64,000 nt of DNA from Pararhizobium qamdonense. Its GTDB lineage: Bacteria > Pseudomonadota > Alphaproteobacteria > Rhizobiales > Rhizobiaceae. The stretch is from assembly GCF_029277445.1 (NCBI RefSeq), contig NZ_CP119568.1, positions 329,501-393,500 on the forward strand, in the 5' to 3' direction. Positions 19,917 through 60,082 of the stretch are shown piece after piece (the first letter of the stretch is position 1; every line of letters begins with the position of its first letter). The position numbers and the translations under genes were made by a program. The notes below the pieces were generated by a model, which saw only the letters and a list, made by a program, of their open reading frames with translations, was not told the DNA's origin and made no database searches.

Positions 19917-19941
19917 GGAACAGGTTCGATTTCATGACGTT
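19917..19941 (+). promoter_or_regulatory. EcfG-type stress promoter (GGAAC-N16-CGTT)
   Basis: GGAAC at 19917-19921 and CGTT at 19938-19941 match the alphaproteobacterial general-stress sigma consensus exactly, 32 bases upstream of the DUF1236 start. Confidence 0.75.
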
Positions 19942-19973
19942 TTGCTGCTGTGAAACAACAGGTGGAGACTGCC

Positions 19974-20375
19974 ATGAACACGAAACTCATTCTCGCATCG
20001 GCCTTTGTCACTCTCGCTCTAAGCGGTTCTGCCTATGCCGATGACGCCAACAGCGCGGTCACGGGTGCCGCAGGCGGTGCGGTCACGGGTGCGATCGTTG
20101 GCGGCCCGGTCGGCGCTGCTATTGGTGGCGCCGTCGGCCTCGTCGCAGGTGCTGCCATCGACCCGCCGCCGGAACGCGTCGTCACCTATGTCCAGCAGCA
20201 GCCTGTGCAGAACTCTGTTGTCGTCAAGCAGCCGATCGTCATCGGCAAGCCTGTCCCGCAGGAGGTCGTCCTGATGCCGATCGCAGAAGATCCGCGCTAT
20301 TCGTACACCGTCGTCAACGACCAGCGCGTCATCGTCGACCCGCAGACCCGCACCGTTGTGCAGGTCATCCAGTAA
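19974..20375 (+). CDS. DUF1236-domain exported protein with glycine zipper
   Basis: 133 residues. The start is ATG 19974 (GGTGGAG site), not the upstream in-frame codon at 19950. A Sec signal peptide (MNTKLILASAFVTLALSGSA, cleavage near YA-DD) precedes a glycine-zipper segment with repeated GGAVxGAIVGGPVGAAIGG pattern. The DUF1236-like C-terminus has SYTVVNDQRVIVDPQTRTVV. Expected periplasmic or outer-membrane associated. It is preceded by a consensus stress promoter and followed by a 24-residue gene and a strong hairpin. Confidence 0.85.
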   Translation: MNTKLILASAFVTLALSGSAYADDANSAVTGAAGGAVTGAIVGGPVGAAIGGAVGLVAGAAIDPPPERVVTYVQQQPVQNSVVVKQPIVIGKPVPQEVVLMPIAEDPRYSYTVVNDQRVIVDPQTRTVVQVIQ

Positions 20376-20420
20376 CGCGAGCCAGCGCCGGGTAACTCGA
20401 CCGCGCGCAGGAGAGAGACG

Positions 20421-20495
20421 ATGAATAGCTTGATCTTGCTCGTCGGAGCAATCGTAATCATCGGCGCAATTTTGTCGTTCATTGGATTGCGCTGA
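20421..20495 (+). CDS. 24-residue hydrophobic peptide
   Basis: A tiny gene: MNSLILLVGAIVIIGAIL then SFIGLR. A near-perfect ribosome site (CAGGAGAGAGACG) lies just upstream of ATG 20421. It is one transmembrane helix with a basic C-terminus. It sits 45 bases after the DUF1236 gene and before the operon hairpin, so is probably cotranscribed under the stress promoter. Confidence 0.7.
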   Translation: MNSLILLVGAIVIIGAILSFIGLR

Positions 20496-20502
20496 ATTAC
20501 TG

Positions 20503-20528
20503 CCCGAGGCAGCCAACGCTGCCTCGGG
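20503..20528. terminator. 11-bp hairpin ending the DUF1236 operon
   Basis: CCCGAGGCAGC (20503-20513) and GCTGCCTCGGG (20518-20528) pair perfectly around a 4-base loop, 7 bases after the small-peptide stop. No T-run follows, but position and strength fit a terminator. Confidence 0.6.
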
Positions 20529-20554
20529 TGAACTCTCAATGTCCCGAGATCCCC

Positions 20555-20722
20555 ATGTCCTACAATAATTCTCCAGAACCATCCGCCTCGATTGGTGGCC
20601 CAATCATAATGTTATTTCTTGTCGTGGCGGTCGCTACAGCTGCGATTTTTTCTACAGGCCTTTCTGGCCCAACGGATCGACGTATTGCTGTGGTTTTGCC
20701 TGCGGTCGACCATGCTCGCTGA
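20555..20722 (+). CDS. Small single-helix membrane protein, uncertain
   Basis: 55 residues from ATG 20555: a polar N-terminus (MSYNNSPEPSASIGG), one hydrophobic helix (PIIMLFLVVAVATAAIF), and a basic tail. Only a weak GAGA ribosome site precedes it. It lies right after the hairpin that ends the DUF1236 operon. Kept because its topology resembles the other small proteins here. Confidence 0.4.
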   Translation: MSYNNSPEPSASIGGPIIMLFLVVAVATAAIFSTGLSGPTDRRIAVVLPAVDHAR

Positions 20723-20776
20723 CGACACCTGTCCTTGTGGGCGCAACTCGTAATGAACCTGCCAAGGAGCGCAACT

Positions 20777-20968
20777 ATGTGGCTCGAACTCACATCCGAA
20801 AACGATGAGAAAATATTTGCCAACGTCGATCAGTTCGTCGTCATATATCCTGTGAACGACGAGAAACTCACGAAAGTCCTGACACCGGGCGGTCCGATCA
20901 TGGTCAAAGAGCCAATGGCGTTCATCCAATCGAAACTGGAGGCTGCGGTCGCTCGATCTACACACTAG
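20777..20968 (+). CDS. Hypothetical protein
   Basis: 63 residues. ATG 20777 has an AAGGAG site 8 bases upstream, better than the frame opening at 20735. The product (MWLELTSENDEKIFANVDQF; ending KLEAAVARSTH) has no membrane segment and reads like a short beta-rich domain. No family recognised. Confidence 0.6.
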   Translation: MWLELTSENDEKIFANVDQFVVIYPVNDEKLTKVLTPGGPIMVKEPMAFIQSKLEAAVARSTH

Positions 20969-21645: not shown

Positions 21646-21670
21646 GGAACATTGGATCCGCCAGCGGGTT
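21646..21670 (+). promoter_or_regulatory. EcfG-type stress promoter (GGAAC-N16-GGTT)
   Basis: GGAAC at 21646-21650 and GGTT at 21667-21670, 52 bases upstream of the DUF892 start. The second DUF892 gene (51693) has the same element with the same spacing. Confidence 0.6.
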
Positions 21671-21722
21671 GTTTGCGCACGGTTGCCCGGTTGGCGCGGC
21701 AATGATTAAGGGAAATCATCTC

Positions 21723-22211
21723 ATGGCTAAATTACTGGAAGATTTGTTCCTCGACACCCTCAAGGACGTTTATTTCGCTGAACAGAAAATTGTCGCGACT
21801 CTTCCGGAAATGGAGCAGGCGGCGACAAACTCTCAGCTGAAGTCCGCCTTCCGCAAGCATCTTGACGAGACTAAAATCCACGTGACGCGTCTGGAGGCCA
21901 TTTTTAACGTGATCGGCGAGGAGCCAGAGGCGAAGACATGCGACGCCATTCTAGGCATTACCGACGAAGGTGCCGAAATCATGGAAGAGTACGAAGGCTC
22001 GCCAGCCCTTGATGCTGGGCTCTTGGCAGCTGCTCAGGCAGTCGAACATTATGAGATGTCACGCTACGGTACACTACGCACTTGGGCGCTTGAGCTCGGC
22101 TATGAGGAAGCGGCGGAGATTCTTCAGTCGACGCTCGACGAGGAACAAGCCACCGATTTGGCACTGACTGCCATCGCCACGTCTGTGGTGAACCAAAAAG
22201 CCGAAGGCTGA
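21723..22211 (+). CDS. DUF892 ferritin-like protein (YciF type)
   Basis: 162 residues. The family N-terminus LEDLFLDTLKDVYFAEQKIV is followed by four helices with Glu and His residues spaced as in ferritin-like bundles (e.g. ALDAGLLAAAQAVEHYEMSR). Relatives are stress-induced and their chemistry is unclear. Start ATG 21723 (AAGGGA site); the frame opens earlier at 21669 but that part is not conserved. Its paralogue is at 51190-51693, and both have a GGAAC-N16-GGTT promoter. Confidence 0.9.
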   Translation: MAKLLEDLFLDTLKDVYFAEQKIVATLPEMEQAATNSQLKSAFRKHLDETKIHVTRLEAIFNVIGEEPEAKTCDAILGITDEGAEIMEEYEGSPALDAGLLAAAQAVEHYEMSRYGTLRTWALELGYEEAAEILQSTLDEEQATDLALTAIATSVVNQKAEG

Positions 22212-27259: not shown

Positions 27260-27284
27260 GGAACATTATCTCCGACGCGCCGTT
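27260..27284 (+). promoter_or_regulatory. EcfG-type stress promoter (GGAAC-N16-CGTT)
   Basis: GGAAC at 27260-27264 and CGTT at 27281-27284 match the full consensus, 35 bases upstream of the ferritin-like gene. Confidence 0.75.
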
Positions 27285-27319: not shown

Positions 27320-27769
27320 ATGGTCACCATGGTCGGAAACGAAGGCAACATCGAGAAGCTCGTCAAGGATCTGCTGTACCTCGAGCACGATGCCATCGCG
27401 GCATACGATTCCTGCATCGAACGGCTCGACGACAAGACCCTCAGCGCCAAGATCGCCGAGTTCAAGCAGGACCACCTGCAGCATGTCGTCGTCCTGAACG
27501 AGATGGCACGCGAGCTTGGCATCGACGCGCCGACGGAAGGCGACATGAAGCAGATCCTGACGACGGGCAAGATTGCCCTCGCCAATCTGATGGGCGATTC
27601 CGCGATCCTCAAGGCGATGAAGACGAACGAAGACGACACGGTTACCGCATACGAGCGCGCCTCCCGTCACGAGGATGCGATCCCGCAGTCGAAGGCGTTC
27701 TTCACGAAGGCGCACGAGGACGAGCTGCGTCACCGGGCATGGATGGAAACGACTGCGAAAACGCTGTGA
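27320..27769 (+). CDS. Ferritin-like protein (DUF2383 type)
   Basis: 149 residues forming a four-helix bundle. Carboxylate/His positions of a ferritin-like di-metal site are visible: EHDAIAAYDSCIERL in helix 1, FKQDHLQHVVVLNEMARELG in helix 2, and AHEDELRHRAWMETT in helix 4. A GGAGAAAC site precedes ATG 27320. With a consensus stress promoter upstream it is a strong general-stress candidate. The exact substrate (metal, peroxide) is unknown. Confidence 0.85.
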   Translation: MVTMVGNEGNIEKLVKDLLYLEHDAIAAYDSCIERLDDKTLSAKIAEFKQDHLQHVVVLNEMARELGIDAPTEGDMKQILTTGKIALANLMGDSAILKAMKTNEDDTVTAYERASRHEDAIPQSKAFFTKAHEDELRHRAWMETTAKTL

Positions 27770-32403: not shown

Positions 32404-32428
32404 GGAACTTGCATCCCATGCGAGGGTT
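32404..32428 (+). promoter_or_regulatory. EcfG-type stress promoter (GGAAC-N16-GGTT)
   Basis: GGAAC at 32404-32408 and GGTT at 32425-32428, 29 bases upstream of the DUF982 start, heading a three-gene operon. Confidence 0.65.
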
Positions 32429-32457: not shown

Positions 32458-32718
32458 ATGGACAGGGTCATCGACGTCAATTTCAAGGTAAAGTGGCAAT
32501 CGCCCGTCTTCGTCCGGATTGGGAACGGAATGCGGGAACGGATCGGCGGGCCGGACGCGGCATTGGCAGCACTTCTCCATCGCTGGCCATCCAGCAGCCG
32601 GTCGGAATATGCCTTGGCCAAGCGCCGCTGCGTCGATGCGGTCGCAAGGCATGGCAACCCCGAGCTTGCCCGCAGCGCGTTTGTCGAAGCCGCGGTCTCG
32701 GCCAAGGTACTCGCATGA
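32458..32718 (+). CDS. DUF982 protein
   Basis: 86 residues. Typical DUF982 pattern: VKWQSPVFVRIGNGMRERIG, then ALAALLHRWPSSSRSEYALA and KRRCVDAVARHG. Function unknown, common in rhizobia. GAGGTAATTT precedes ATG 32458. Its stop overlaps the DUF2243 start (ATGA). Confidence 0.85.
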   Translation: MDRVIDVNFKVKWQSPVFVRIGNGMRERIGGPDAALAALLHRWPSSSRSEYALAKRRCVDAVARHGNPELARSAFVEAAVSAKVLA

Positions 32719-33194
32719 CAGGATTGGAGCGCCCCACTCGAAGCTTCCCGCTGTCCGCCGGGCTGCTCTTAGGCTTGAGCCTTGGAGGCTTTTTCGACGG
32801 CATCGTTCTCCATCAGCTTCTGCAATGGCATCATATGCTGAGCTCCTGGTACCCGATCACGTCGATTGAGAACCTTGAACTCAACACCTTCTGGGACGGT
32901 ATCTTCCACTCTGGTACCTACGTCTTTGTCCTTGTCGGCCTCTTTATCCTGTGGCGGTCCGGTCGCCGTAGCCATTTTCGCTGGTCGGCAGGCGACCTTA
33001 TCGCGACGATGCTCATCGGCTTCGGTGTGTTCAACCTCGTCGAAGGCGTCATCGACCATCAGGTGCTAGGCTTACACCACGTCAATGAAACCGTCCCTCG
33101 CGGGGAGTGGCTCTACTGGGACCTCGGTTTTCTAGCATGGGGCGGCGTGATGCTCGTCATCGGCAAATTGTTGATGAGGAAACGCAATGGCTGA
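32715..33194 (+). CDS. DUF2243 four-helix membrane protein
   Basis: 159 residues with four transmembrane helices. Family marks: GGFFDGIVLHQLLQWHHMLS with conserved His, and FNLVEGVIDHQVLGLHHVNE with further His, which suggest haem or metal ligation in the membrane. Start ATG 32715 overlaps the DUF982 stop; the frame is open further upstream, but that is an artefact. Its stop overlaps the next small gene. Function of the family is not known to me. Confidence 0.87.
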   Translation: MTGLERPTRSFPLSAGLLLGLSLGGFFDGIVLHQLLQWHHMLSSWYPITSIENLELNTFWDGIFHSGTYVFVLVGLFILWRSGRRSHFRWSAGDLIATMLIGFGVFNLVEGVIDHQVLGLHHVNETVPRGEWLYWDLGFLAWGGVMLVIGKLLMRKRNG

Positions 33195-33348
33195 GATGTT
33201 ACGTGAAGCCAGCACAGCGATGATTTGGGCAGCTTTTGCGTTGGGCCTCGTCTTCGCGACGCGACCGGTGTGGTCGTTCCTTTTCTTGGGGGCAAACTTT
33301 ACGTTTGAAGACTTGCTCTCGCTGCGTTGCTTTGGCCTCCCCACATGA
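33187..33348 (+). CDS. Small membrane protein ending the DUF982-DUF2243 operon
   Basis: 53 residues: MAEMLREASTAMIWAAFALG then LVFATRPVWSFLFLGANF. One hydrophobic helix and a short amphipathic tail. ATG 33187 lies inside the DUF2243 gene with an 8-base overlap, and a GAGGA site (33175-33180 region) sits in the upstream coding sequence. Translational coupling supports it as real. Confidence 0.6.
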   Translation: MAEMLREASTAMIWAAFALGLVFATRPVWSFLFLGANFTFEDLLSLRCFGLPT

Positions 33349-33400
33349 CGCATCGGTTAGATAGACGGCAGCATCCGAGAAACAACCGACGGAGCCGAAG

Positions 33401-34736
33401 ATGACTCTGAGTAACGACCGACCTGGCCTTGGCGTCGATACCGTGCGTTTCGCCATGTCGTCATTATTGGCGGTGGTTTCGGCGGTCTGGCGTGTGCCAT
33501 GGAACTAGGGAACGCACCGGATACCGGCGTCACGGTCGTTGACCGCCGCAATCACAACCTCTTTCAGCCGCTGCTTTATCAAGTGGCGACCGCGGCCCTT
33601 TCGCCGGCAGATATTGCCGAACCGATCCGCAAAACGCTTGCCCGTTTCAAGAACATCCACATGATCATGGCAGAAGTGGTCGGCATAGATCCGCCGGCGC
33701 GCACGGTGTCGCTGTCTGATGGCAGTCCGATTTCCTACGATCAGCTCGTCATCGCCACCGGTTCCAACTACAACTATTTCGGACACGAGGAATGGCGAAA
33801 GTTTGCACCCGGCCTGAAGAGCATTCACGAGGCGCGGCAGATCCGTCATCGCCTGATTCTGGCATTCGAAAGAGCGGAGTGGGCGAAGAGCGAAGCCGAC
33901 AAACAGGCGTTGCTCACCAGCATCGTCATCGGCGGTGGACCGACGGGCGTCGAAATGGCCGGCGATCTCCGAACTCGGCCGCTTTATGATCAGCCGCGAC
34001 TTTCGAAACCTGCAGCCCGACAATCTTAGGGTGATCCTCGTGGAGGCGGGACCACCGCATACTCGCCGCCTTTCCTGACCATCTTTCCGCGTACGCGAAA
34101 TCCTACCTCGAAAATATCGGCGTCGAAGTGCGCACAGGCAAGCGGGTGATCGACATTCGCGCCGACGGAGCCCATATCGAAGGCGCGTTCGTCCCGGCCG
34201 GATTGATCATGTGGGGCGCGGGCGTCAAGGCCTCCCCCGCCCATTCATGGCTGGGGATACCGGGCGTCGCCGGTGGGCGAATACCGGTCGACGATTGTCT
34301 CCGTGTCATCGGGTTTGACGGCATCTACGCCATCGGCGACACATCTGCGCTGGCCGGGTCGGATGGAAAGGTTCTGCCCGGTCTAGCACAAGTCGCTAAG
34401 CAACAAGGAACATACCTTGGAAAAACCCTGCGAACGGGTAGAGCCGTGGCAGGCTTCCAATTCAAGAACCGCGGCAATACGGCGGTGATCGGGCGGAACG
34501 CCGCCGTCTTCGACTTTGGAAAATGGACGTTGAAAGGGCGGGTAGCCTGGCTGCTTTGGGCACTCGTTCACGTCTATCTCCTCATCAATTTCGAGAAGCG
34601 CCTTCTCGTTGCCATTCAATGGGCCGGGCGGTACCTCACTCGGCAACGCGGCGCGCGCATTATCGACGAAACGGCCGAGCGTCCCGAGCATAAAGATCAA
34701 CCAATCGCCACCGACAGCGCCGCCGTTCGACGGTAG
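33401..34736 (+). pseudogene. ndh: Type II NADH dehydrogenase (Ndh), frameshifted
   Basis: A flavoprotein that would transfer electrons from NADH to quinone. The FAD-binding HVVIIGGGFGGLACAMELG, the active-region FQPLLYQVATAALSPADIAE, the NADH-binding IVIGGGPTGVEMAG, and the C-terminal YAIGDTSALAG and LINFEKRLLVAIQWAGRYL membrane-associated tail are all recognisable. ATG 33401 with a GGAG site is in another frame from the FAD motif (indel between about 33410 and 33450). Further shifts lie near 33963 (after EMAG) and 34054. With three corrections a full-length protein appears. Possible sequence errors. Confidence 0.85.
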
Positions 34737-35232: not shown

Positions 35233-35257
35233 GGAACCGTGCGCAGTCCCGGAAGTT
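35233..35257 (+). promoter_or_regulatory. EcfG-type stress promoter (GGAAC-N16-AGTT)
   Basis: GGAAC at 35233-35237 and AGTT at 35254-35257, 79 bases upstream of the CBS gene. The leader is longer than at the other sites, so assignment is less certain. Confidence 0.45.
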
Positions 35258-35336: not shown

Positions 35337-35750
35337 GTGAAGGTCAGAGAATTCATGACGGTCCAGGTGATATCAGCCAAGCCGACCGATTCAGTCGAAG
35401 ACGTGGCTCGAATGATGTCCGAGATCGACAGCGGCGCCATCCCAGTGATCGAAGATCATGTCGTCGTCGGGATGATTACCGATCGGGACATTGTCATACG
35501 AGTCGTCGCCGAGCGCAAGGATGGCTTGACGCCGGCTTCCGACGTCATGACCGAAGGGGTCGAAAGCTGCCTGGAAGACGACGACATTGCCGAGGCCGCA
35601 AGACGGATGGCCGAGCTTCAGATGCGCCGGCTCGTCGTTTTCAGCGGCGAAGGGAAGCTTTCCGGCATCATCTCGCTTGGGGACATAGCGATCGAGCATC
35701 AGGGCGATCTCGCGACTGAAGCGCTCGAGGAAATCTCACAGGACGCATGA
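35337..35750 (+). CDS. Two-CBS-domain protein
   Basis: 137 residues from GTG 35337 (GGGAGAG site). Two CBS motifs: MTVQVISAKPTDSVEDVARM with VVVGMITDRDIVIRVVAE, and DVMTEGVESCLEDDDIAEAA with SGIISLGDIAIEH. Stand-alone CBS pairs bind adenine nucleotides and are frequent in stress regulons. The target is unknown. The frame is open from 35223 but that part is not family-like. Confidence 0.88.
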   Translation: MKVREFMTVQVISAKPTDSVEDVARMMSEIDSGAIPVIEDHVVVGMITDRDIVIRVVAERKDGLTPASDVMTEGVESCLEDDDIAEAARRMAELQMRRLVVFSGEGKLSGIISLGDIAIEHQGDLATEALEEISQDA

Positions 35751-36724: not shown

Positions 36725-36749
36725 GGAACTTCCAAACTGGTGGGAAGTT
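36725..36749 (+). promoter_or_regulatory. EcfG-type stress promoter (GGAAC-N16-AGTT)
   Basis: GGAAC at 36725-36729 and AGTT at 36746-36749, 26 bases upstream of the DUF3606 start. It heads the DUF3606, small membrane protein, DNA ligase gene set. Confidence 0.6.
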
Positions 36750-36775: not shown

Positions 36776-36955
36776 GTGTCGAGCACCAAAGGAGGCAGAG
36801 CGCAGGACCGGGCACGCGTCGCAGGCGGCCAGGACCACGGGGTTCGCTACAAAGCCAAAAAAGAGGGCGTTACAACGGATGCCTTAAAAGGTGCCGTCAA
36901 GGACGTCGGCAATAGCCGTACAAAAGTCGAAGCCGATCTGGAGAAGAAACGATGA
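36776..36955 (+). CDS. DUF3606-type small protein
   Basis: 59 residues from GTG 36776 with an AGGAG site. Core RARVAGGQDHGVRYKAKKEG then VTTDALKGAVKDVGNSRTKV is the DUF3606 pattern: a predicted small helical domain, common in stress-induced rhizobial genes. Stop overlaps the next ATG (ATGA). Confidence 0.82.
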   Translation: MSSTKGGRAQDRARVAGGQDHGVRYKAKKEGVTTDALKGAVKDVGNSRTKVEADLEKKR

Positions 36956-37188: not shown

Positions 37189-37190
37189 CC

Positions 37191-42150: not shown

Positions 42151-42175
42151 AACCGACCGGCAAGGTTAAAGTTCC
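42151..42175 (-). promoter_or_regulatory. EcfG-type stress promoter (GGAAC-N16-GGTT) for the MBL hydrolase
   Basis: On the minus strand GGAAC is at 42175-42171 and GGTT at 42154-42151, 26 bases from the ATG. It lies 7 bases from the divergent element at 42183. Confidence 0.65.
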
Positions 42176-42182
42176 GTCCTGC

Positions 42183-42207
42183 GGAACTTGTAGACGGCAA
42201 CCCGGTT
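42183..42207 (+). promoter_or_regulatory. EcfG-type stress promoter (GGAAC-N16-GGTT) for the 63-residue gene
   Basis: GGAAC at 42183-42187 and GGTT at 42204-42207, 28 bases upstream of ATG 42236. Together with the minus-strand element it forms GTTCC-N7-GGAAC. Confidence 0.65.
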
Positions 42208-42489: not shown

Positions 42490-43386
42490 GTGACAACAAA
42501 TGTCGCTTTACGCCTGGAAAGTCATGGCCCCCGCGAGGGCGCCCCACGAGAACATCGGGACGCTGGATCCATAGAAATCAGTACCACGTTTCCGCTTTTC
42601 CTGCCGCCGGTACTGTCCGACCCGAACCAGCTCGAAAGTGCGCTGCTCAATCTGGTGGTCAACGCCCGGGACGCCATGCCGGACGGGGGGATGATCTCGA
42701 TCTCAGCTCGCAAACACATGCTAAAAGAGAAACAGGATCCGGACCTTGCCGCTGGCGAATACGTCTGCCTCTCTGTCAAAGACGAGGGTGCAGGCATGGA
42801 CGCGGCAACACTGGAGAAGGCCACGACGCCGTTCTTCACCACGAAGGGCATCGGCAAAGGAACCGGTCTCGGGTTGCCGATGGTGCAGGGCTTGATGGCT
42901 CAGTCCGGCGGGCGCCTGATCATGAAGTCGAAATCAGGGCAGGGCACCACAGCCGAGCTGTGGCTTCCTGTGGTAGACATTAGCGCTGTGCCCGAACCTG
43001 TCGCGGAGATACCGTCGTCCGCTCCGGTATCTCCCATGACGGTTATGGCGGTCGACGACGACAGCCTTGTCTTAATGAACACGGTCTTGATGTTGGAGGA
43101 CCTTGGACACACTGTGATCGAAGCAAGTTCAGGGGAGGACGCGCTTCGGCGTCTCGAACTGGGGCCGCTACCGGACATCCTAATTACCGACCACGCTATG
43201 CCCCAAATGACGGGAGCGGAGCTGGCAAGGCAAGTGGCCGAGAAGCATCCTGAACTCAACGTGATCCTGGCCACCGGTTACGCTGAACTGCCAGGAGGAG
43301 AGGGTGCCGGGTTAGCGCGGTTATCCAAGCCGTTTACGCAGGACCAGTTGAATAACGCTCTTGCCGCTGCGGCCGTATCTCGTTAG
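42490..43386 (+). pseudogene. Hybrid histidine kinase, 5'-truncated (HATPase_c + receiver)
   Basis: The recognisable part starts near residue 40: HATPase_c with ESALLNLVVNARDAMPDGG, VKDEGAGMDAATL and FTTKGIGKGTGLGLPMVQGL, then a receiver domain (VMAVDDDSLVLMNTVLMLED; ILITDHAMPQMTG; RLSKPFTQDQL). The HisKA domain and all sensory input are absent and the first about 35 residues are unrelated. The reading frame itself is intact (298 codons), so a receiver-containing product could still be made, but not a working kinase. Confidence 0.75.
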
Positions 43387-45672: not shown

Positions 45673-45697
45673 AACTCAGACTTCTGACAAATGTTCC
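45673..45697 (-). promoter_or_regulatory. EcfG-type stress promoter (GGAAC-N16-AGTT)
   Basis: Minus strand: GGAAC at 45697-45693, AGTT at 45676-45673, 20 bases upstream of GTG 45652. Confidence 0.55.
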
Positions 45698-45758: not shown

Positions 45759-45905
45759 TTAACCGCCTGGTTCTGCGGAATCGACCAATCCTTTGCCCGT
45801 TGCCAGTAGATCGGCATCGGAACTCAAGTCAATAATTGATTTGAGAAGGAGTGCCACCGCAATGAGGAGGGGCAGCGCGATGGCAATTTTCGGTGACGTC
45901 GTCAT
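45759..45905 (-). CDS. Small single-helix membrane protein
   Basis: 48 residues from ATG 45905 with an AGGAG site. One helix (IAIALPLLIAVALLLKSII) and a short polar tail (SSDADLLATGKGLVDSAE). A GGAAC-N16-AGTT element lies 31 bases upstream. No family recognised. Confidence 0.7.
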   Translation of the reverse strand: MTTSPKIAIALPLLIAVALLLKSIIDLSSDADLLATGKGLVDSAEPGG

Positions 45906-45936: not shown

Positions 45937-45961
45937 AACTGACGCGTGGGACCAAGGTTCC
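45937..45961 (-). promoter_or_regulatory. EcfG-type stress promoter (GGAAC-N16-AGTT)
   Basis: Minus strand: GGAAC at 45961-45957, AGTT at 45940-45937, 31 bases upstream of ATG 45905. Confidence 0.55.
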
Positions 45962-45972: not shown

Positions 45973-46155
45973 CTAGTGATGAAACCTTTGTGCCGCCCGG
46001 TCGGCAGCGTCGCGGTCTGAGCCGTGGGCTTTGATCAGACGCAGTGCTTCCTTCATAGATAGCCCATGCTTCTTCGCGAAGTACGCGACGTCATAGCTTC
46101 CACCATGAGAAACAGACTTCGTTTCGAGCGGTATTTTTGCCTTTGCGTTGGACAT
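45973..46155 (-). CDS. DUF3606-like small protein
   Basis: 60 residues from ATG 46155 with an AAGGAGATC site. The C-terminal half SYDVAYFAKKHGLSMKEALR then LIKAHGSDRDAADRAAQRF resembles DUF3606 (compare the protein at 36776-36955). The longer frame to 46410 is an artefact of low-complexity sequence. Preceded by a GGAAC-N17-CGTT promoter. Confidence 0.75.
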   Translation of the reverse strand: MSNAKAKIPLETKSVSHGGSYDVAYFAKKHGLSMKEALRLIKAHGSDRDAADRAAQRFHH

Positions 46156-46178: not shown

Positions 46179-46204
46179 AACGAGTGTAGTGACTCTGCGG
46201 TTCC
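46179..46204 (-). promoter_or_regulatory. EcfG-type stress promoter (GGAAC-N17-CGTT)
   Basis: Minus strand: GGAAC at 46204-46200, CGTT at 46182-46179, 23 bases upstream of ATG 46155. The spacer is 17, within the known range. Confidence 0.65.
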
Positions 46205-46556: not shown

Positions 46557-46634
46557 GTCGGAGTAGAGCAGCCCGGTAGCTCGTTTGGCTCATAACCAGA
46601 AGTGCCGCAGGTTCGAATCCTGGCTCCGCAACCA
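46557..46634 (+). tRNA. Initiator-like tRNA-Met (CAT), divergent
   Basis: The sequence has initiator-type hallmarks: GAGCAGCCCGGTAGCTCG D-arm, CAT anticodon in loop CTCATAA, a TTCGAAT T-loop, and an encoded 3' CCA. Deviations: acceptor positions 1-72 and 2-71 do not pair, the first T-stem pair is G-G, the variable loop is one base longer than usual (78 bases in all), and the anticodon stem next to the loop is TGG/CCA, giving only two of the three G-C pairs typical of initiators. It may be a second, degenerating or specialised copy. Confidence 0.75.
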
Positions 46635-50149: not shown

Positions 50150-50174
50150 GGAACCAACCACGAACCCGAAAGTT
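50150..50174 (+). promoter_or_regulatory. EcfG-type stress promoter (GGAAC-N16-AGTT)
   Basis: GGAAC at 50150-50154 and AGTT at 50171-50174, 18 bases upstream of the GTG of a broken SDR gene. Confidence 0.5.
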
Positions 50175-50192: not shown

Positions 50193-50720
50193 GTGGGAAG
50201 ACGGGTCGCACTGGTGACAGGAGCAGGGTCTTGAATCGGACGGGCGTTTGTTCTTTCACTCGCCGCCAATGGTTATGCAATCGGGGGCCTCGGCCACAGC
50301 GGTAATGAACTCTAAGACGTGGTCAAGGAAATCGAAAACAATGGTCAAAAGGCTGTTCTGCTCAATGCCGACATCTCAGATGAGGCCCAGATGAGGGACG
50401 CGGTCGATAAACTCATTGACAATACGGCCGCTTGGACGTGGTCGTCGCGAACGCGGGCATCAACGGCGTCTGGGCACCCATCGATGATCTCAGCCTGGAG
50501 GAGTGGAACAAGACGATCTCGGTAAACTTCACGGGCACCTTCCTGACGATATTTACATCGGTTCCACATCTCAAGGTATCAGGGGGAGGATCGGTTACCC
50601 TCGATCAACGAAATCAGAACGTTCACGACGCCGGGCGCAACCGCATATGCCGGGCGCGTCCTCGATGCACCGGAGCGGTGTATGGCGACTGGGAGTTGGG
50701 CGCACGAACGCTGCAGCTAA
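50193..50720 (+). pseudogene. Short-chain dehydrogenase, decayed
   Basis: Starts GTG 50193 with RRVALVTGAGS; the next codon is TGA where the family has Gly of TGxxxGIG. A second in-frame TAA follows near 50300. An indel near 50430 changes the frame into LDVVVANAGINGVWAPIDDL (NNAG-type motif) and EEWNKTISVNFTGTFLTIF; later sequence is scrambled and the YxxxK site is lost. Two nonsense codons show real decay. A stress-type promoter remains in front. Confidence 0.8.
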
Positions 50721-50829
50721 AAGCGAATTTTTCCGACAACGACGTTGTATTGCTGAATAGACTGGGGGGCGGGTTTTTCCGTGAATGACCTCGATGGAGT
50801 CCGACTTGGTAAACTCACAGTGGAAATTT

Positions 50830-51189: not shown

Positions 51190-51693
51190 TTAAGCAACCT
51201 TCTTCTTGCCGGCCTTAGGGTTCGCCGAAGCCTCACCGAGCTGGGTGAGCAGCTCGTCGGTGGCGATTTCCTCCTGGAGATTGGCGTCAAGCAAGGCAAC
51301 GGCTTCAGTGTAGCCAAGCTGCTCTGCCCACGACTTCAAGGTACCGTAGCGGGCAATCTCGTAATGCTCGACAGCCTGCGCAGAAGAGATCAGTCCAGCG
51401 TCAAGCGCAACCGAGCCCTTGTATTCGTCAATGATCTCCTCACCCTCCGCAATAATGCCCTGGATCGCTTCACAGGTCTTGCCGCGGGCTGCCTTGCCGA
51501 TGATTTCGAACACCTGTTGCAGGCGCTCGATCTGGCCGTCGGTTTCGTCGCGATGCTTCAAGAACGCGGCCTTGCCTTCTTCCGACTGTGCGGCGCGGGC
51601 CATTTTCGGGAGTGCTTTCAGGATCTGCTTTTCGGCGAAATAAATGTCCTTGAGCGTGTCGAGGAACAGATCGTCGAGTGTCTTCTCAGCCAT
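51190..51693 (-). CDS. DUF892 ferritin-like protein (YciF type), second copy
   Basis: 167 residues from ATG 51693 (AGAGGAG site); the long frame to 52059 is an artefact. Family N-terminus LDDLFLDTLKDIYFAEKQIL and helices with ALDAGLISSAQAVEHYEIAR match the copy at 21723-22211. It ends in a basic tail (ASANPKAGKKKVA). Preceded by GGAAC-N16-GGTT and followed by an intrinsic terminator, so it is a monocistronic unit. Confidence 0.92.
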   Translation of the reverse strand: MAEKTLDDLFLDTLKDIYFAEKQILKALPKMARAAQSEEGKAAFLKHRDETDGQIERLQQVFEIIGKAARGKTCEAIQGIIAEGEEIIDEYKGSVALDAGLISSAQAVEHYEIARYGTLKSWAEQLGYTEAVALLDANLQEEIATDELLTQLGEASANPKAGKKKVA

Positions 51694-51736: not shown

Positions 51737-51761
51737 AACCACGCTTGCGAAAAATTGTTCC
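51737..51761 (-). promoter_or_regulatory. EcfG-type stress promoter (GGAAC-N16-GGTT)
   Basis: Minus strand: GGAAC at 51761-51757, GGTT at 51740-51737, 43 bases upstream of the DUF892 ATG. Confidence 0.65.
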
Positions 51762-52680: not shown

Positions 52681-52705
52681 GGAACCTAGCGACGTCCCAG
52701 TGGTT
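52681..52705 (+). promoter_or_regulatory. EcfG-type stress promoter (GGAAC-N16-GGTT)
   Basis: GGAAC at 52681-52685 and GGTT at 52702-52705, 28 bases upstream of the SDR ATG. Confidence 0.65.
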
Positions 52706-52733: not shown

Positions 52734-53597
52734 ATGTCGGACACCAATCGCCCAAAGCCCCTGCAGCCGAAACAGGAACAAGCGCCTCCCGGTCAAACGA
52801 AGCTCATGCAGCCGGTCCCTGACCATGGCGAAGAATCGTACAAGGGCTCTGGGCGGCTCTTTGGCAAGGTGGCGCTTATCACTGGAGGTGATTCTGGCAT
52901 CGGCCGTGCCGTTGCCATCGCCTTTGCGCGGGAAGGTGCGGATGTTCTGATTTCATACTTGAGCGAACACGAGGACGCCGAGGAAACAGAACGCTGGGTC
53001 ACGGCGTCAGGAAGGAAGGCAATCCTTGTACCCGGAGATATCAAGAGCGAATCATTCTGCATCGAGCTGGTCAGCAGGGCCGTTGGTGAACTCGGCGGTC
53101 TCGATATCCTCGTTAACAACGCCGCGTTTCAGCGCAGCTATACGGGCATCGACGAGATTGAAGATGCCGAATGGGACGAAACATTCCGGACAAATATCTA
53201 TGCACCTTTCTATCTGTCTAAGGCTGCAATTCCGCATATGAAACCCGGCAGCTCGATCATCAATACGACATCGATCCAATCCCGTCAGCCATCGTCGCAT
53301 CTGCTGGCCTACGCCGCGACAAAGGGAGCCGTTTCCAACTTCACGGCAGGGCTGGCGGAGATGGTCGCGGACAAAGGCATCCGCGTTAATGCGGTTGCTC
53401 CTGGCCCGATCTGGACACCGCTGATCCCTTCCACGATGCCGCCGGAGAAAACGGAATCTTTTGGAAAGCAGACGTTGATTGGCAGAGCCGGTCAACCGGC
53501 AGAACTCGCTGGTGCGTATGTTCTTCTTGCCTCGAGCGAGGGCAGCTACATGACGGGAGCGGTCATCCCGGTCACCGGCGGCGAGATCATGATCTAG
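52734..53597 (+). CDS. SDR oxidoreductase (general-stress YghA/YhdF type)
   Basis: 287 residues. A Pro/Gln-rich N-terminal extension (KPLQPKQEQAPPGQTKLMQP) precedes the Rossmann fold: nucleotide motif LITGGDSGIGRAVAIAF, LDILVNNAAFQRS (NNA), Ser in INTTSIQSRQPS, and catalytic Tyr/Lys in LAYAATKGAVSNF. C-terminal GAVIPVTGGEIM is typical. This extended group is often stress-induced; substrate unknown. AAGGAG site before ATG 52734 and a GGAAC-N16-GGTT promoter. Confidence 0.92.
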   Translation: MSDTNRPKPLQPKQEQAPPGQTKLMQPVPDHGEESYKGSGRLFGKVALITGGDSGIGRAVAIAFAREGADVLISYLSEHEDAEETERWVTASGRKAILVPGDIKSESFCIELVSRAVGELGGLDILVNNAAFQRSYTGIDEIEDAEWDETFRTNIYAPFYLSKAAIPHMKPGSSIINTTSIQSRQPSSHLLAYAATKGAVSNFTAGLAEMVADKGIRVNAVAPGPIWTPLIPSTMPPEKTESFGKQTLIGRAGQPAELAGAYVLLASSEGSYMTGAVIPVTGGEIMI

Positions 53598-53655: not shown

Positions 53656-53680
53656 GGAACAATCGATCAAACCCTTAGTT
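53656..53680 (+). promoter_or_regulatory. EcfG-type stress promoter (GGAAC-N16-AGTT)
   Basis: GGAAC at 53656-53660 and AGTT at 53677-53680, 22 bases upstream of the SPW gene; probably also drives the dehydrogenase behind it. Confidence 0.6.
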
Positions 53681-53702: not shown

Positions 53703-54068
53703 ATGCGTTTCATTCCAACCCTGTTTCATGGAATGGCTGATTATGTCGTCGGCTTTGTAGTCATGATCCTCCCCTTCATGCTTGGCCTTCAGGACACCCC
53801 GCGGGTGACGCTCTTCCTATTGGGGGCAATTGTGATCCTCTACAGCCTTGGCACCGACTACGAGCTTGGCGCAATCCGGTTCTTGCGCATTCGCTTTCAC
53901 CTCGTGTTGGACGCCCTCTTCGGCGTCGCGATGTTGGCAGCGCCTTGGATTGTCTCTTTTCCGTCGGATGCGCGGTGGCCGGTCTATGCGATTGGCGTAC
54001 TTGCGCTGGTCCTTGCGGCGACAACTGAAATTCGTGCGGTCGGAACAGCCGCCCCAGATCACACATAA
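53703..54068 (+). CDS. SPW-repeat-like membrane protein
   Basis: 121 residues with four transmembrane helices. The two-unit pattern [20 protein letters not shown] and [20 protein letters not shown] is typical of SPW-repeat proteins, small membrane proteins of unknown function. AGGAGG site before ATG 53703. The dehydrogenase gene follows after 11 bases. Confidence 0.82.
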
Positions 54069-54079: not shown

Positions 54080-55255
54080 ATGAAGGCACTTTGCTGGCAC
54101 GGCAAGGGCGATATCCGGTGCGACAGCGTACCGGAACCGACGATCGAAGACGGTCGCGACGTGATCATCAAGATGACGGCCTGCGCCATATGCGGGTCGG
54201 ACTTGCATTTAATGGATGGCTATATCCCCTTTATGGAAAAGGGCGACATTCTTGGCCATGAGTTCATGGGTGAGGTGGTCGAAGTCGGCCGGGATAACAA
54301 AAAGCTGAAGGTCGGCGACCGTGTGGTCGTGCCCTTCACGATTTGCTGCGGCGAGTGCCAGCAGTGCCTGAAGGGGAACTGGTCGGTTTGTGAACGAACC
54401 AATCGCAATGCCGACAACGCCATCAAGGCGTTCGGATACCAAACGGCCGGCTTGTTTGGCTATTCTCATCTGACGGGCGCGTACGCCGGTGGTCAGGCGG
54501 AGTTTGTGCGCGTCCCTTATGCCGACGTCTCACCGATCATCATCCCGAACGGGATGAGCGACGAGCAGGCGCTGTTCCTCGGCGACATCTTTCCGACCGG
54601 CTGGATGGCAGCGGCCAACTGCGAGATCGAGCCGACCGACATCGTTGCCGTCTGGGGGTGCGGGCCCGTCGGACAATTCTGCATCAAGAGCGCCTTCTTG
54701 CAGGGTGCGGCACGCGTCATTGCCATCGACAACGTCCCGGAACGCCTGGCACTTGCCCAGCAGGCCGGTGCGGAAATTATCAACTTTGACGATGAAGACG
54801 CCACGATCCTTGACCGCATCAAGGAAATGACCGGCGGCCATGGGGCGGACAAATGCATTGACGCCGTCGGTGCAGAATCCCACGCGACGGCGTCCTTCGA
54901 CGCCGTCATCGACAAGGTCAAAGCAGCGACACTCTTGGGGACAGACCGGCCACATGCCCTGCGTGCAGCCATCATGGCTTGTAGGCCGGGCGGAATTGTT
55001 TCCGTTCCCGGAGTCTATGGAGGATTTCTGGATAAGATCCCCTTCGGCGCTGCCATGAACAAGGGACTGACGATCCGCACAGGACAGACGCATGTGAACC
55101 GTTACTCGCTCGACCTGCTGCGGCGCATCGAGGAAGGCGAGATCGATCCGAGCTTCGTCATTACCCACCGCGCCAAGCTGGAAGACGGACCTGCTCTTTA
55201 CGAGACGTTCCGGGACAAAAAGGACAACTGCATCAAGGTCGTCCTTACTGCATAG
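54080..55255 (+). CDS. Zinc-dependent alcohol dehydrogenase
   Basis: 391 residues of the medium-chain dehydrogenase family, formaldehyde-dismutase-like branch. Catalytic zinc ligands Cys38 ([13 protein letters not shown]) and His60-Glu61 ([12 protein letters not shown]); structural zinc Cys90, 93, 96 and 104 ([16 protein letters not shown]). NAD-binding Rossmann motif [15 protein letters not shown]. The long loop after about residue 260 fits this branch. Substrate unknown, perhaps aldehydes formed under stress. AAGGAG before ATG 54080. A hairpin follows the stop. Confidence 0.92.
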
Positions 55256-57052: not shown

Positions 57053-57077
57053 GGAACCATAAACAGGCATTAGAGTT
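57053..57077 (+). promoter_or_regulatory. EcfG-type stress promoter (GGAAC-N16-AGTT)
   Basis: GGAAC at 57053-57057 and AGTT at 57074-57077, 85 bases before the DUF6894 start. Confidence 0.45.
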
Positions 57078-57162: not shown

Positions 57163-57408
57163 TTGCGCTATTATTTTCAAATTAAAACCTTGGACGGAAT
57201 CGAAAGTGACTGGGATGGCATCGAATTTGTCAGCCTTGACGCCGCACTTGACGATGCTAGGGCAAGCCTGTTTGAAATGGTGGCAGAGGATCTGAAAACC
57301 GGTCATGCAACCAAGCTTCTCGGTATCGACATTACAGACGGTAACGGTAACTTCCTCGCGAAGGTTAGGATTGAGGATGTGATTCAAAATAATCCCAGAG
57401 ATGTCTAA
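57163..57408 (+). CDS. DUF6894-like small protein
   Basis: 81 residues. Relatives begin with M-x-x-YFF/YYF, which favours the TTG at 57163 (reading as MRYYFQIKTLDG) preceded by an AGAGGATG site; TTG 57139 is the alternative. Core FVSLDAALDDARASLFEMVA and LGIDITDGNGNFLAKV. Function unknown. Confidence 0.75.
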   Translation: MRYYFQIKTLDGIESDWDGIEFVSLDAALDDARASLFEMVAEDLKTGHATKLLGIDITDGNGNFLAKVRIEDVIQNNPRDV

Positions 57409-57815: not shown

Positions 57816-57825
57816 TTTGACGATA

Positions 57826-57885: not shown

Positions 57886-57947
57886 TGGGTATTCCTCCTT
57901 GTGAGCGTCGCTCCTCGGCGACGTAACGGCCTAACCGGGCGCTTTCC

Positions 57948-57990
57948 GCGCAGTTTCTTCGCCGCAAAAAAAGATTTGATGAAACTGCGC
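57948..57990. repeat. 10-bp inverted repeat around an A-rich core
   Basis: GCGCAGTTTC (57948-57957) and GAAACTGCGC (57981-57990) are exact complements with 23 bases between, including a run of seven A. It lies in the part of this duplicated region that is absent from the copy at 61.3-61.5 kb. Could be a small insertion or an RNA hairpin. Confidence 0.5.
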
Positions 57991-58208
57991 TGGTGGTCCT
58001 TCCGAGCGTGCCGAGTGACAACCGGATTGATACGGCTTTCGCCAGAAGCCGAAACATGCCCCACCCTTGTGCAGGCCCGCAGTCATCAACTACTAGCCGT
58101 ACCCAATTTGGTTCTTGCCGCAACCAACCTCTGTGACATCGCGTTGGTGTTGGTCAGCAGCACCGATCACAAGATAAAGATCGGATAGCGCGTACTGCGC
58201 CATTGTCC

Positions 58209-58319
58209 TCACTGATCATGGGAGGATCGGGGTCGGCGCGGTCCAAGCCAAAGGACTACAATCGCCGCGAGGAGTGGTATGGCACCCGTTAGCAGGAAAA
58301 AAATTGCTGATACTGACAT
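58209..58319 (-). CDS. 36-residue membrane peptide
   Basis: MSVSAIFFLLTGAIPLLAAI then VVLWLGPRRPRSSHDQ: one helix and a basic tail. ATG 58319 has a perfect GGAGGAG ribosome site. No family recognised. Similar in kind to the tiny membrane proteins elsewhere in the window. Confidence 0.6.
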   Translation of the reverse strand: MSVSAIFFLLTGAIPLLAAIVVLWLGPRRPRSSHDQ

Positions 58320-58705
58320 TGCCGTCTCCTCCATCCAGCAGGCCTTCAATCGAAAATCAAGCAAGGGCAGGGGACAGCAGCGCTAGCTTCGCACGATGAC
58401 AGAAGCACGGGCGTTTTCGCGTCCCACCCTACACTGTCTCTCCAACTGCCGATAGACACGATAGTTCATCTTTTGTTTCCAAAAAATTGAATAACGTTAC
58501 ATTGGTCGGCTCGCGTTAAAGGCTGACACTTAAGCGTTGAACGCGAATAGTCTAGGCTCGGGATGTAAGGACCGTCGTGTTTGACTAGCGGACGACAAAC
58601 GCTCGACGCTCGAGGCCAATGTTTGTGCTTGGATACTTGGGCGAAAGAGGTGCGAGCCAGGGCGGAGGGTTGCTCCGCGTGCACGCATCGCCGTGCGGGA
58701 ACGCT
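58320..58705. other. Gene-free stretch
   Basis: Nothing convincing beyond the short frames seen on both strands. It lies between the 36-residue peptide and the 3' end of the convergent esterase gene. Confidence 0.35.
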
Positions 58706-59665
58706 TCAGACGGCTGCGAACGACGGAATGAGCCCCCAACCACGAGCGATATGTTTAGTAGAAGAAATTCCGATATCAAGCAGGAATGGTCCAGCTCTGC
58801 CGTAACCGCCAGCAGTGTCGAGCGGCGTGCCATGCCCCATGTCCTTGATGCGATGAAGTTCGATCATCTCGTGCCCACAAACATCTGACCAGACAAAATG
58901 ATCATGGCCCTCAACATTCGTGTGCTTTGCCGGAGGGGAACGTACATCATACACCGCGCTCCACTGTTCAACGATCGCCTCCGCATTCACCTGGTCTACA
59001 GTCGTATCTGCAGTACCCTGCCACACGGAAATGGAGGGCCAAGGTCCGGCGTGGGAAGAGGCAGCACGGAGTCTTTTCTGCGATGATTCCGGCGACGATA
59101 GCCCATATCCACGCATCCGGTCGAATGCCTGTGGGATCGTTACGGCTGCACCATAAGGCAGTGCCGCAATGATTGCGCCGCCAGCAAACACTTCCGGATA
59201 GACGGCGAGCATTGCGTTGGCCATCGCGCCGCCTGCTGATAGCCCCGTGACAAAGACGCGCCTTGGGTCAATGCCTTGGTCGGCGATCATCGTCGCAATA
59301 ATCTCACGGATAGATTTGACCTCGCCATGTTCACGATCAACGTCGCTCCCATAGAACCAGTTGAAGCAAAGGTTCCGATTGTTCTGCCTGGCCTGCTCGG
59401 GGAAGAGAACGGCGAACCCGAAGTCGTCCGCCAACTTCGACCATCCTGATCCCTCGTCATAACTCGCAGCGGTCTGCGTACACTCGTGCAGCACGACGAC
59501 GAGAGCTGGCAATACCAGGCCGTGAGGAACGTGGTGCCACCCCGTCAGTTCGCCAGGGTTCTTCCCAAAATCTTCCAGTTCACACAATCTGCTTTCATCA
59601 TAAATGGAATCAGGCCGTAGACTATAGCGCTTGAGGCGTTCAACAGTATCGGAAAGGCTTCTCAT
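58706..59665 (-). CDS. PHB-depolymerase-family esterase (LpqC-like)
   Basis: 319 residues, alpha/beta-hydrolase. Oxyanion region VVLHECTQTAASYDEGSGW, nucleophile in VFVTGLSAGGAMANAMLA (GLSAGG), Asp in VWQGTADTTVDQVNAE and a His near DMGHGTPLD. About 60 residues precede the domain, without a signal peptide, so it is probably cytosolic; relatives hydrolyse polyester oligomers or other esters. Start ATG 59665. Confidence 0.88.
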   Translation of the reverse strand: MRSLSDTVERLKRYSLRPDSIYDESRLCELEDFGKNPGELTGWHHVPHGLVLPALVVVLHECTQTAASYDEGSGWSKLADDFGFAVLFPEQARQNNRNLCFNWFYGSDVDREHGEVKSIREIIATMIADQGIDPRRVFVTGLSAGGAMANAMLAVYPEVFAGGAIIAALPYGAAVTIPQAFDRMRGYGLSSPESSQKRLRAASSHAGPWPSISVWQGTADTTVDQVNAEAIVEQWSAVYDVRSPPAKHTNVEGHDHFVWSDVCGHEMIELHRIKDMGHGTPLDTAGGYGRAGPFLLDIGISSTKHIARGWGLIPSFAAV

Positions 59666-59806
59666 CTCGGCCCCAGGTTATCGCGGAAAGCTAAATAACT
59701 TCAGCGAGGATCAGGAAGTGCTGCATTGGTACAAACGAATACGCCGTGGACATTAGATCGGTTGGCATCTGACGACAGGACTGCTGCGTCGTTCCCGCAG
59801 ATTGCC

Positions 59807-60025
59807 CTAGTCAGAATTCATTGTCGGCAAGTTGGTTTCCACCTCGCGCCGCCGTTCGTCTGGCAGCGATTGAATCCGCTCATTCCAGAAAATTGCGGCT
59901 TCTTCAGGCTCGTCGTCCCATTGCCTCGTGTCGACAATGTTATCGTCGAGCTTACCGCGACGCGTGCCGCCGAGTTTTAGGTAGTCGGCTGCTAATTGTG
60001 CCGCATTTGTTTGAGGCGTGGTCAT
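59807..60025 (-). CDS. Conserved small hypothetical protein
   Basis: 72 residues from ATG 60025 with a GGAG site: MTTPQTNAAQLAADYLKLGG then DNIVDTRQWDDEPEEAAIFW. Acidic, soluble. A remnant paralogue lies at 56845-57042. A GGAAC-N16-GGTT element sits 32 bases upstream. No named family known to me. Confidence 0.72.
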   Translation of the reverse strand: MTTPQTNAAQLAADYLKLGGTRRGKLDDNIVDTRQWDDEPEEAAIFWNERIQSLPDERRREVETNLPTMNSD

Positions 60026-60057
60026 CGCGATTTCTCCAGACAGTGCAGCAAGAAGAC

Positions 60058-60082
60058 AACCACCAGCGGTGGCTGAAGTTCC
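60058..60082 (-). promoter_or_regulatory. EcfG-type stress promoter (GGAAC-N16-GGTT)
   Basis: Minus strand: GGAAC at 60082-60078, GGTT at 60061-60058, 32 bases upstream of ATG 60025. Confidence 0.6.

Follow-up and report, generated by a model that had tools for sequence, protein, structure and literature searches.

A cluster of predicted EcfG-type promoters with a mostly purine first -10 base on a secondary replicon of Pararhizobium qamdonense

Introduction

What reads a dense cluster of general-stress promoters that keeps the usual -35 element and spacer and departs from the usual form at the first base of the -10 element? The question is raised by a stretch of 64,000 nucleotides of Pararhizobium qamdonense (the window), which corresponds to C3:329501-393500, C3 being a secondary replicon of 615 kb. 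The alphaproteobacterial general-stress promoter, that of EcfG1/RpoE2/SigT, has the form GGAAC-N16/17-CGTT. The window carries 17 elements of the same build ahead of genes, and in 14 of these the -10 element is GGTT or AGTT (together RGTT, R being a purine). The genome has 6,242,368 bases in five contigs, namely C1 (4.36 Mb, the chromosome), C2 (0.90 Mb), C3 (0.615 Mb), C4 (0.248 Mb) and C5 (0.116 Mb).

What is new here is that the chromosomal EcfG-type promoters differ in their first -10 base from those of an island on C3 that runs through the window and beyond it. Among papers judged by title and the opening of the abstract, with subscription journals mostly outside coverage, none described RGTT or GGTT promoters as a class belonging to stress regulons of plasmids or accessory regions.

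The elements and their clustering

The original prediction, made from the letters of the sequence, had listed 17 elements. A regular-expression scan of both strands recovers all of them in the same places and orientations, 16 with a spacer of 16 bases and one with 17 (46179, minus strand), and with the same split of the -10 element: CGTT three times, GGTT seven times and AGTT seven times. The -35 GGAAC is present in 17 of 17 by construction of the search. The elements, followed by one further match, are these:

19917..19941, plus strand: GGAAC-N16-CGTT, before a DUF1236/Gly-zipper gene (Pfam), 19974-20375
21646..21670, plus strand: GGAAC-N16-GGTT, before a DUF892 ferritin-like gene, 21723-22211
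27260..27284, plus strand: GGAAC-N16-CGTT, before a DUF2383 ferritin-like gene, 27320-27769
32404..32428, plus strand: GGAAC-N16-GGTT, before a DUF982-DUF2243-FAD oxidoreductase block, 32458-34736
35233..35257, plus strand: GGAAC-N16-AGTT, before a CBS-domain gene, 35337-35750
36725..36749, plus strand: GGAAC-N16-AGTT, before a DUF3606-hypothetical-ATP-dependent DNA ligase block, 36776-38225
42151..42175, minus strand: GGAAC-N16-GGTT, before a metallo-beta-lactamase-fold gene, 41291-42124
42183..42207, plus strand: GGAAC-N16-GGTT, before a small gene, 42236-42427, and a histidine kinase/receiver gene, 42490-43386
45673..45697, minus strand: GGAAC-N16-AGTT, before a 48-codon frame with a GTG start 20 bases downstream
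45937..45961, minus strand: GGAAC-N16-AGTT, before a 48-codon gene, 45759-45905
46179..46204, minus strand: GGAAC-N17-CGTT, before a 60-codon gene, 45973-46155
50150..50174, plus strand: GGAAC-N16-AGTT, before a partial short-chain dehydrogenase match, 50438-50788
51737..51761, minus strand: GGAAC-N16-GGTT, before a DUF892 ferritin-like gene, 51190-51693
52681..52705, plus strand: GGAAC-N16-GGTT, before an SDR oxidoreductase gene, 52734-53597
53656..53680, plus strand: GGAAC-N16-AGTT, before an SPW-domain gene, 53703-54068, and a zinc alcohol dehydrogenase gene, 54080-55255
57053..57077, plus strand: GGAAC-N16-AGTT, before a DUF6894 gene, called as 57163-57408, with TTG starts 61 or 85 bases downstream
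60058..60082, minus strand: GGAAC-N16-GGTT, before a small gene, 59807-60025
16357..16381, plus strand: GGAAC-N16-AGTT, a further match with no ribosome-site frame downstream, probably a chance occurrence

About two matches had been expected by chance, and the excess over this figure is confirmed: the window holds 21 matches to the N16-NGTT pattern, against a mean of 1.76 in 100 dinucleotide-preserving shuffles, the largest count being 6 and none reaching 21. Beyond the listed 17, the N16 matches are 1591 and 59526 (both within genes), 16357, 44719 (minus) and 53658 (minus); the last is 53656 read backwards, an end-dyad that matches on both strands. Gene calls were made with a simple finder of our own, which called 56% of the window coding, and 14 of the 21 sites lie upstream of genes, 2 inside genes and 5 elsewhere, so that the density inside genes does not equal that upstream. 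The proposed placement 18-85 bases ahead of genes holds for 16 of the 17 (20-85 bases), where a downstream start is taken as credible if its codon is preceded by a sequence like a ribosome-binding site and opens a frame of 48 codons or more. It does not hold for 50150, which is followed only by TTG frames of 38 and 48 codons, with no convincing intact frame at the usual distance; the dehydrogenase match behind it looks like a remnant.

Over the whole genome the N16/17 pattern occurs 405 times and the reversed pattern 379 times, which is near chance at about 4 per 64 kb, and the window, with 22 matches including the N17 site, is about five-fold enriched over its own genome. As the motif is not clearly enriched genome-wide, the unusual feature is the cluster; plain chance is ruled out for it by the shuffles together with the genome-wide control. 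On C3, 48 A/C/G-GTT sites lie upstream of predicted genes, 29 of them within C3:345-445 kb, and 2000 uniform draws of the C3 upstream sites never put more than 20 into any 100 kb. The cluster runs about 50 kb past the window, spanning about C3:345-445 kb (the island), where 3 sites lie inside genes and the reversed pattern occurs upstream of genes 0 times. When a ribosome site is required, there are 21 island RGTT sites with a spacer of 16, and at most one at each spacer of 12-15 and 17-20. The spacers are mostly unrelated between sites, with both boxes and the 16-base distance fixed. Smaller RGTT groups are found at C1:960-976 kb and in other parts of C3.

Within its roughly 100 kb the island has 29 to 38 predicted ECF15/EcfG-like promoters, placed about 20-90 bases ahead of single genes or short operons whose products are small, ferritin-like, redox or DNA-repair proteins; their predicted promoter nature is well supported by position and conservation. 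A dense EcfG-like cluster before stress-type genes on an accessory replicon, as first proposed, is upheld, and EcfG, two NepR proteins and PhyR are all encoded in the genome.

Two classes of -10 element

The surroundings of all 134 A/C/G-GTT N16 sites of C1 were classified, and 100 of 101 GGTT places were covered; TGTT was listed incompletely genome-wide, so T is under-counted on C1, C2, C4 and C5. The first base of the -10 element in upstream sites is as follows:

C1 outside the C1 island: 43 C, 12 G (three being copies of one repeat), 2 A, 2 T
C1:955-1010 kb: 0 C, 2 G, 2 A
C3 island: 3 C, 16 G, 10 A, 0 T (RGTT in 26 of 29)
Rest of C3: 4 C, 7 G, 8 A, 3 T
C2: 2 C, 4 G, 1 A
C4: 4 C, 2 G, 1 A
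C5: 1 A

For C against A plus G, the difference between C1 and the C3 island is strong (Fisher 7e-9, and 5e-8 with near-identical sites removed). Of the consensus that had been cited for the elements, the -35 and the spacer stand; the -10 does not, CGTT being present in only 3 of 17 elements in the window and 3 of the 29 island upstream sites, and the departure is systematic relative to the chromosomal sites. Because the -10 flexibility described in print includes GGTT, the island sites are filed as variants and not as consensus members. With a ribosome site required, the island has 21 RGTT and 3 CGTT sites and none with TGTT, CATT, RATT, CGTC, RGTC, CGTA, RGTA or the other variants tried. The same count on the C1 segments gives 23 CGTT, 21 RGTT (including the C1 island and the repeat copies), 2 TGTT, 2 CATT, 2 CGTC and 1 RATT. 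Around NepR-PhyR (C1:3.790-3.804 Mb) the -10 is CGTT at 7 of 7 sites. The class difference is well supported by sequence, and systematic rather than scatter.

Two spacer positions also set the 44 RGTT sites of C3 and the C1 island apart from the 43 distinct chromosomal CGTT sites. One is the first spacer base, which is T in 13/44 RGTT and 1/43 CGTT sites (p 7e-4); the other is the base immediately before the -10, which is T in 15/44 and 4/43 (p 0.008). Both positions were selected from about 50, so only their repetition elsewhere counts.

Some sites recur as copies. An identical GGTT site is present four times on C1 (649172, 1922526, 3211277 and 4212650), three times 38 bases before a gene and once inside a gene, which suggests a repeated element, resembling an insertion sequence (IS), that carries a stress-type promoter. 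Island-type promoters are repeated in identical or near-identical form at C3:351146 and C3:395698 (the former being element 21646), at C3:60253-62458 and C1:973536-975718, and at C3:478829-489072 and C4:31698-43192, which suggests that copies of stress blocks have passed from one replicon to another. An artefact of such repetition was considered as the source of the contrast between C and other bases, and was rejected as the contrast remains after near-identical sites are removed.

Sigma factors and their neighbourhoods

The genome encodes EcfG at C1:1698843, 89.6% identical to Sinorhizobium records, and NepR at C1:1698709 and C1:3799910, with PhyR adjoining the latter. This is the only EcfG, and no EcfG2 at all, that turned up when the genome, apart from a few kb that read N, was searched in three ways: with the Pfam Sigma70_r2 family, with the EcfG protein and with a profile built from 18 proteins of EcfG2 type. 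The next-best matches to the EcfG2 profile are two extracytoplasmic function (ECF) sigma factors distant from EcfG, at C1:1829424 (120.6 bits) and C1:2186925 (112.3 bits), and both fall outside the EcfG2 clade in a tree.

Neighbourhoods of the two kinds of sigma gene, taken as the sequence within about 10-20 kb of the gene, differ sharply in the first base of NGTT. Near EcfG2-type genes it is C at 17, G at 40, A at 15 and T at 24 of 96 sites (reversed-pattern control 15); near EcfG1 genes it is C at 90, G at 7, A at 4 and T at 8 of 109 (control 7). The C share differs with a Fisher value of 1e-21, in a comparison that confounds sigma factor and location, EcfG2 neighbourhoods being accessory regions as well. 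Three of the 23 EcfG2 loci (L228, L241 and L246) lie outside the clade and have no sites, so the counts stand for 20 loci; 17 of these give T 17, G 27, A 10 and C 15, and the other three, which are named plasmid stretches, give G 13, T 7, A 5 and C 2. A scan of genome contigs with an EcfG2-like protein gave 65 loci, mostly from Sphingopyxis, none of which was used.

Of the two spacer features, T just before the -10 is repeated: the non-C sites near EcfG2 have it in 20 of 79 cases and the CGTT sites near EcfG1 in 5 of 90 (p 4e-4). The other feature, T as first base of the spacer, is not (16/79 near EcfG2 vs 15/90 near EcfG1).

The sigma factors themselves differ in region 2. In local EcfG numbering, 21 EcfG1 and 20 EcfG2 proteins have Ala (21) or Ser (20) at position 62, Leu (21) or Met (15) at 68 and Glu (20) or Thr (16) at 71. 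We infer that these residues face the -10 element. The last of them, which follows a conserved Asn (Glu in 20 of 21 EcfG1, Thr in 16 of 20 EcfG2), is a candidate reader of the first -10 base. SigH in the Protein Data Bank (PDB) alignment has Thr at this place; it is presumably the M. tuberculosis protein, which reads a GTT -10.

Conservation in other genomes

Pieces of the window between 19000 and 43400 match plasmids, mainly in Rhizobium, Mesorhizobium, Agrobacterium and Neorhizobium records. Across 16 loci on other rhizobial plasmids, 23 sites were found before orthologs of island genes: 11 GGTT, 6 AGTT, 5 TGTT and 1 CGTT (two of the GGTT sites being identical in sequence, and 5 of the 23 lying 161-212 bases from the start). 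The -10 is thus non-C in 22 of 23, where an unconstrained first base would be C at about 0.28, the C content of the window. The boxes are kept and the spacers changed. Four of the 16 loci scanned have no site (L274, L277, L278 and L279), and the alcohol dehydrogenase and DUF72 genes, neither of which is directly preceded by a site in the window, mostly lack one in other genomes too.

The class of individual elements is often kept. GGTT stands before the counterparts of 32404 in R. etli CIAT 652, R. acidisoli and R. leguminosarum WSM1325 and of 51737 in two Shinella orthologs; Neorhizobium sp. EC2-8 has AGTT, with a near-identical spacer, at the counterpart of 36725, and GGTT at that of 35233. 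WSM1325 has AGTT upstream of the gene corresponding to 42151, and three orthologs of the SPW-alcohol dehydrogenase pair (53656) have GGTT, GGTT and AGTT. Before orthologs of the SDR gene (52681), AGTT, AGTT, TGTT, TGTT and GGTT are found in five and no site in a sixth. One of the three CGTT elements of the window, 19917, has CGTT also at the corresponding site in a matching plasmid stretch of Rhizobium sp. 32-5/1.

Sites also crowd together on two other plasmids. On pR132503 of R. leguminosarum WSM1325, where island genes have orthologs, a stretch of 31.5 kb contains 14 N16/17 sites, none of them CGTT, and the plasmid's own EcfG2-like sigma gene lies among them. Two 80%-identical EcfG2-like sigma factors are encoded on WSM1325 plasmids (L154:12293-12817 and L269:19998-20522), and the upstream region of each has a GGAAC site with CATT at the -10. 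On R. etli p42f the 40 kb around ecfG2 contain 14 N16 sites, of which 2 are CGTT, against 2 N16/17 sites in another 34.7 kb of the plasmid.

The family was also compared at one genome per genus, 81 in all, a sample of uneven completeness in which the genera do not count as phylogenetically independent. The pattern RGTT-ribosome site-ATG occurs 54 times in the present genome, more than in any other of the 81 (the next having 35, 29 and 27); the CGTT pattern occurs 33 times, which two genomes exceed, and the TGTT pattern 8 times. Genomes with a sigma factor of the EcfG2 clade (16) have a median of 15.5 RGTT patterns, against 6.5 in the 50 with EcfG1 alone (Mann-Whitney 3e-6); EcfG2-positive genomes had second hits above about 103 bits that were checked in a tree, weaker second hits being kept as negative, and leaving these out gives a similar p. 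The fraction R/(R+C) is 0.48 in EcfG2 genomes vs 0.32 (p 0.0025), and CGTT counts are likewise higher in them (p 0.0025). In 14 of the 80 other genomes no close EcfG1 was found, and these, which include small genomes, have medians of 2 RGTT and 1 CGTT, vs 6.5 and 13 in the 50 with EcfG1 only.

Genes of the island

The genes behind the sites are of stress type, among them three ferritin-like proteins (DUF892/DUF2383), SDR and zinc dehydrogenases, a CBS protein and an ATP-dependent DNA ligase. The original description of the regulon as mostly monocistronic is partly right; judged from gene order alone, three blocks look like operons (SPW-alcohol dehydrogenase, DUF982-DUF2243-FAD oxidoreductase and DUF3606-hypothetical-ligase). 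In the second of these the FAD-dependent oxidoreductase (NDH2-like, 33499-34736), which follows DUF2243, is broken into two frames; the annotations of R. acidisoli and R. leguminosarum WSM1325 likewise show it in pieces, and that of R. etli CIAT 652 shows a single gene.

Directly to the left of the island, three tyrosine-recombinase-like genes and a PIN/Phd-type toxin-antitoxin pair (window 7842-8885, 10553-11626, 11928-13091 and 13187-13854) form a possible integration module. The only tRNA gene in the window, tRNA-Met (CAT) at 46557-46634, lies near three small genes with EcfG sites. On A. tumefaciens pAspH13-3a (L273) a Ku gene adjoins the SPW-alcohol dehydrogenase-SDR block. The DNA ligase of the island offers a parallel, and end-joining repair genes may travel together with such stress genes.

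Discussion

Our judgement falls just on the side of a real accessory general-stress regulon with variant promoters that is read, in this strain, by chromosomal EcfG1 as a second grade. As no other EcfG was found, EcfG1 is the simplest account of the reader. Under stress, PhyR would pull NepR from EcfG, and the EcfG holoenzyme would then fire the island promoters; the core CGTT regulon would respond first, and the island would follow at higher free EcfG. The island would in this way plug into the existing stress switch of its host, bringing none of its own. In Sphingopyxis granuli, according to the portions of the 2020 paper available (PMC7083833), both EcfG paralogs were assayed in vitro on natural GGTT, TGTT and CATT promoters, and the GGTT promoter was transcribed by EcfG1 and EcfG2; when the CATT and TGTT promoters were changed, CGTT was the best -10, and a change of CGTT to CATT or TGTT weakened transcription, the changes made including neither C to G nor any in the GGTT promoter.

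Several points weigh against reading by EcfG1. The weaker grade that GGTT and AGTT would represent relative to CGTT is presumed. The island keeps CGTT at 3 of its 29 sites, and C4 has C at 4 of 7. If the promoters were merely weak ones for EcfG1 they should include CATT and TGTT, and as the island has neither among its sites linked to a ribosome site, this looks like selection for a purine and not drift. The T ahead of the -10 is common to the island RGTT class and to EcfG2 neighbourhoods, which points to another reader, and RGTT is commoner in genomes that carry EcfG2. Nor can replicon location alone explain RGTT: the RpoE2 promoters printed for pSymA and pSymB genes of S. meliloti are CGTT, with CATT for rpoE5, in the part of the 2018 paper available (PMC6180224), and accessory location as the sole cause is therefore rejected.

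The purine-only -10 and the link with EcfG2 in other genomes make a separate EcfG2-type code a serious rival, with the shared T before the -10 shifting the odds slightly towards it. RGTT, or more widely non-C GTT, would then be the preferred -10 of rhizobial EcfG2-type sigma factors, which are often plasmid-borne, and the island would have evolved under one that has been lost here or lies in bases that are unread; we regard this as possible, though well short of even. It accords with the low C share near EcfG2 (17/96, vs 90/109 near EcfG1), the WSM1325 block with its internal sigma factor and no CGTT, the crowding of non-C GTT sites around ecfG2 on p42f, the RGTT-rich EcfG2 genomes and the differences at positions 62, 68 and 71. 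In the accessible portions of the 2013 R. etli study (PMC3892343), EcfG2 (PF00052, plasmid p42f) controls genes partly different from those of EcfG1, and a motif search over its regulon came up empty, with 1 of 19 EcfG2-dependent units matching GGAAC-N16-CGTT. However, EcfG2 was not found in this genome, T is free at the -10 near EcfG2 (24/96) where the island has none in 29, T at the first spacer base does not carry over, and CGTT counts rise in EcfG2 genomes too. The EcfG2-like sigma genes of WSM1325 have CATT at their own sites and ecfG2 of R. etli has no clear site; R. etli katG, EcfG2-dependent in print, was tried as a test of EcfG2 reading RGTT and failed, having no upstream site. Another ECF sigma factor of the strain, for example that at C1:1829424 or C1:2186925, is an unlikely reader: these are the next-best matches to the EcfG2 profile, and S. 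meliloti RpoE6 (ECF26) does overlap the RpoE2 regulon in the available text (PMC6180224), but both lie outside the EcfG2 clade, the ECF26 consensus printed there is GGAATA with a GT-type -10 and not GGAAC, and in the sequence examined neither gene has GGAAC-N15/18-NGTT before it. It is highly improbable that the elements are operator dyads (GGAAC...GTTCC), or a motif that arises from repetition or base composition, and not promoters. Some island blocks are duplicated, and 53656 is an end-dyad on both strands, as are a few other sites on C1 and C3; yet the dyad is present in only 1 of 17 elements, the spacers are mostly unrelated around fixed boxes, the sites lie on the coding strand at promoter distance from starts, and the C/non-C contrast survives de-duplication. 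An inverted-repeat operator is rejected except for 53656.

We advance tentatively the idea of a one-letter address, in which CGTT would mark the chromosomal EcfG1 core and a purine or other non-C GTT, often with T ahead, the mobile accessory regulon served by EcfG2-type sigma factors. If this is true, whole stress islands could move between species under their own insulated code, and the EcfG2 motif sought in vain in R. etli, as far as the available text of that study goes (PMC3892343), would be supplied. In our view there is a common tendency to regard accessory replicons as passengers in the core stress response. A consistent difference between core and accessory -10 elements in one cell, kept across species despite divergence of the spacers, suggests that the accessory layer is purposely graded or insulated. 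It gives a testable motif for the EcfG2 branch and a sequence-based prediction of stress islands, and a search built on the CGTT consensus would overlook the larger part of a regulon of this kind, here 14 of 17 elements.

Comparison with known systems

The island resembles EcfG1/RpoE2/SigT promoters in the -35, the 16-base spacer, the GTT of the -10, the short leader, the stress-type targets and the presence of PhyR-NepR-EcfG in the genome. It differs from them in the first base of the -10, a G or an A for 14 of the 17 elements in the window, and in being a tight cluster on one accessory replicon. With the R. etli EcfG2 regulon it shares a plasmid-borne accessory stress branch, adjoining ferritin-like genes and the clustering of non-C GTT sites, there around ecfG2; unlike that system, no EcfG2 was found here, and TGTT, which occurs in R. 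etli, is absent from the island upstream sites. In S. granuli, CGTT is the commonest of up to 14 -10 boxes in the portions of the paper available (PMC7083833), whereas here the purine class is concentrated in one island with no ribosome-site-linked TGTT or CATT. Closest in gene content is the WSM1325 pR132503 block, where orthologous SPW-alcohol dehydrogenase, metallo-beta-lactamase and DUF982-DUF2243 genes have GGTT or AGTT sites; unlike the island, that block has an EcfG2-like sigma factor of its own.

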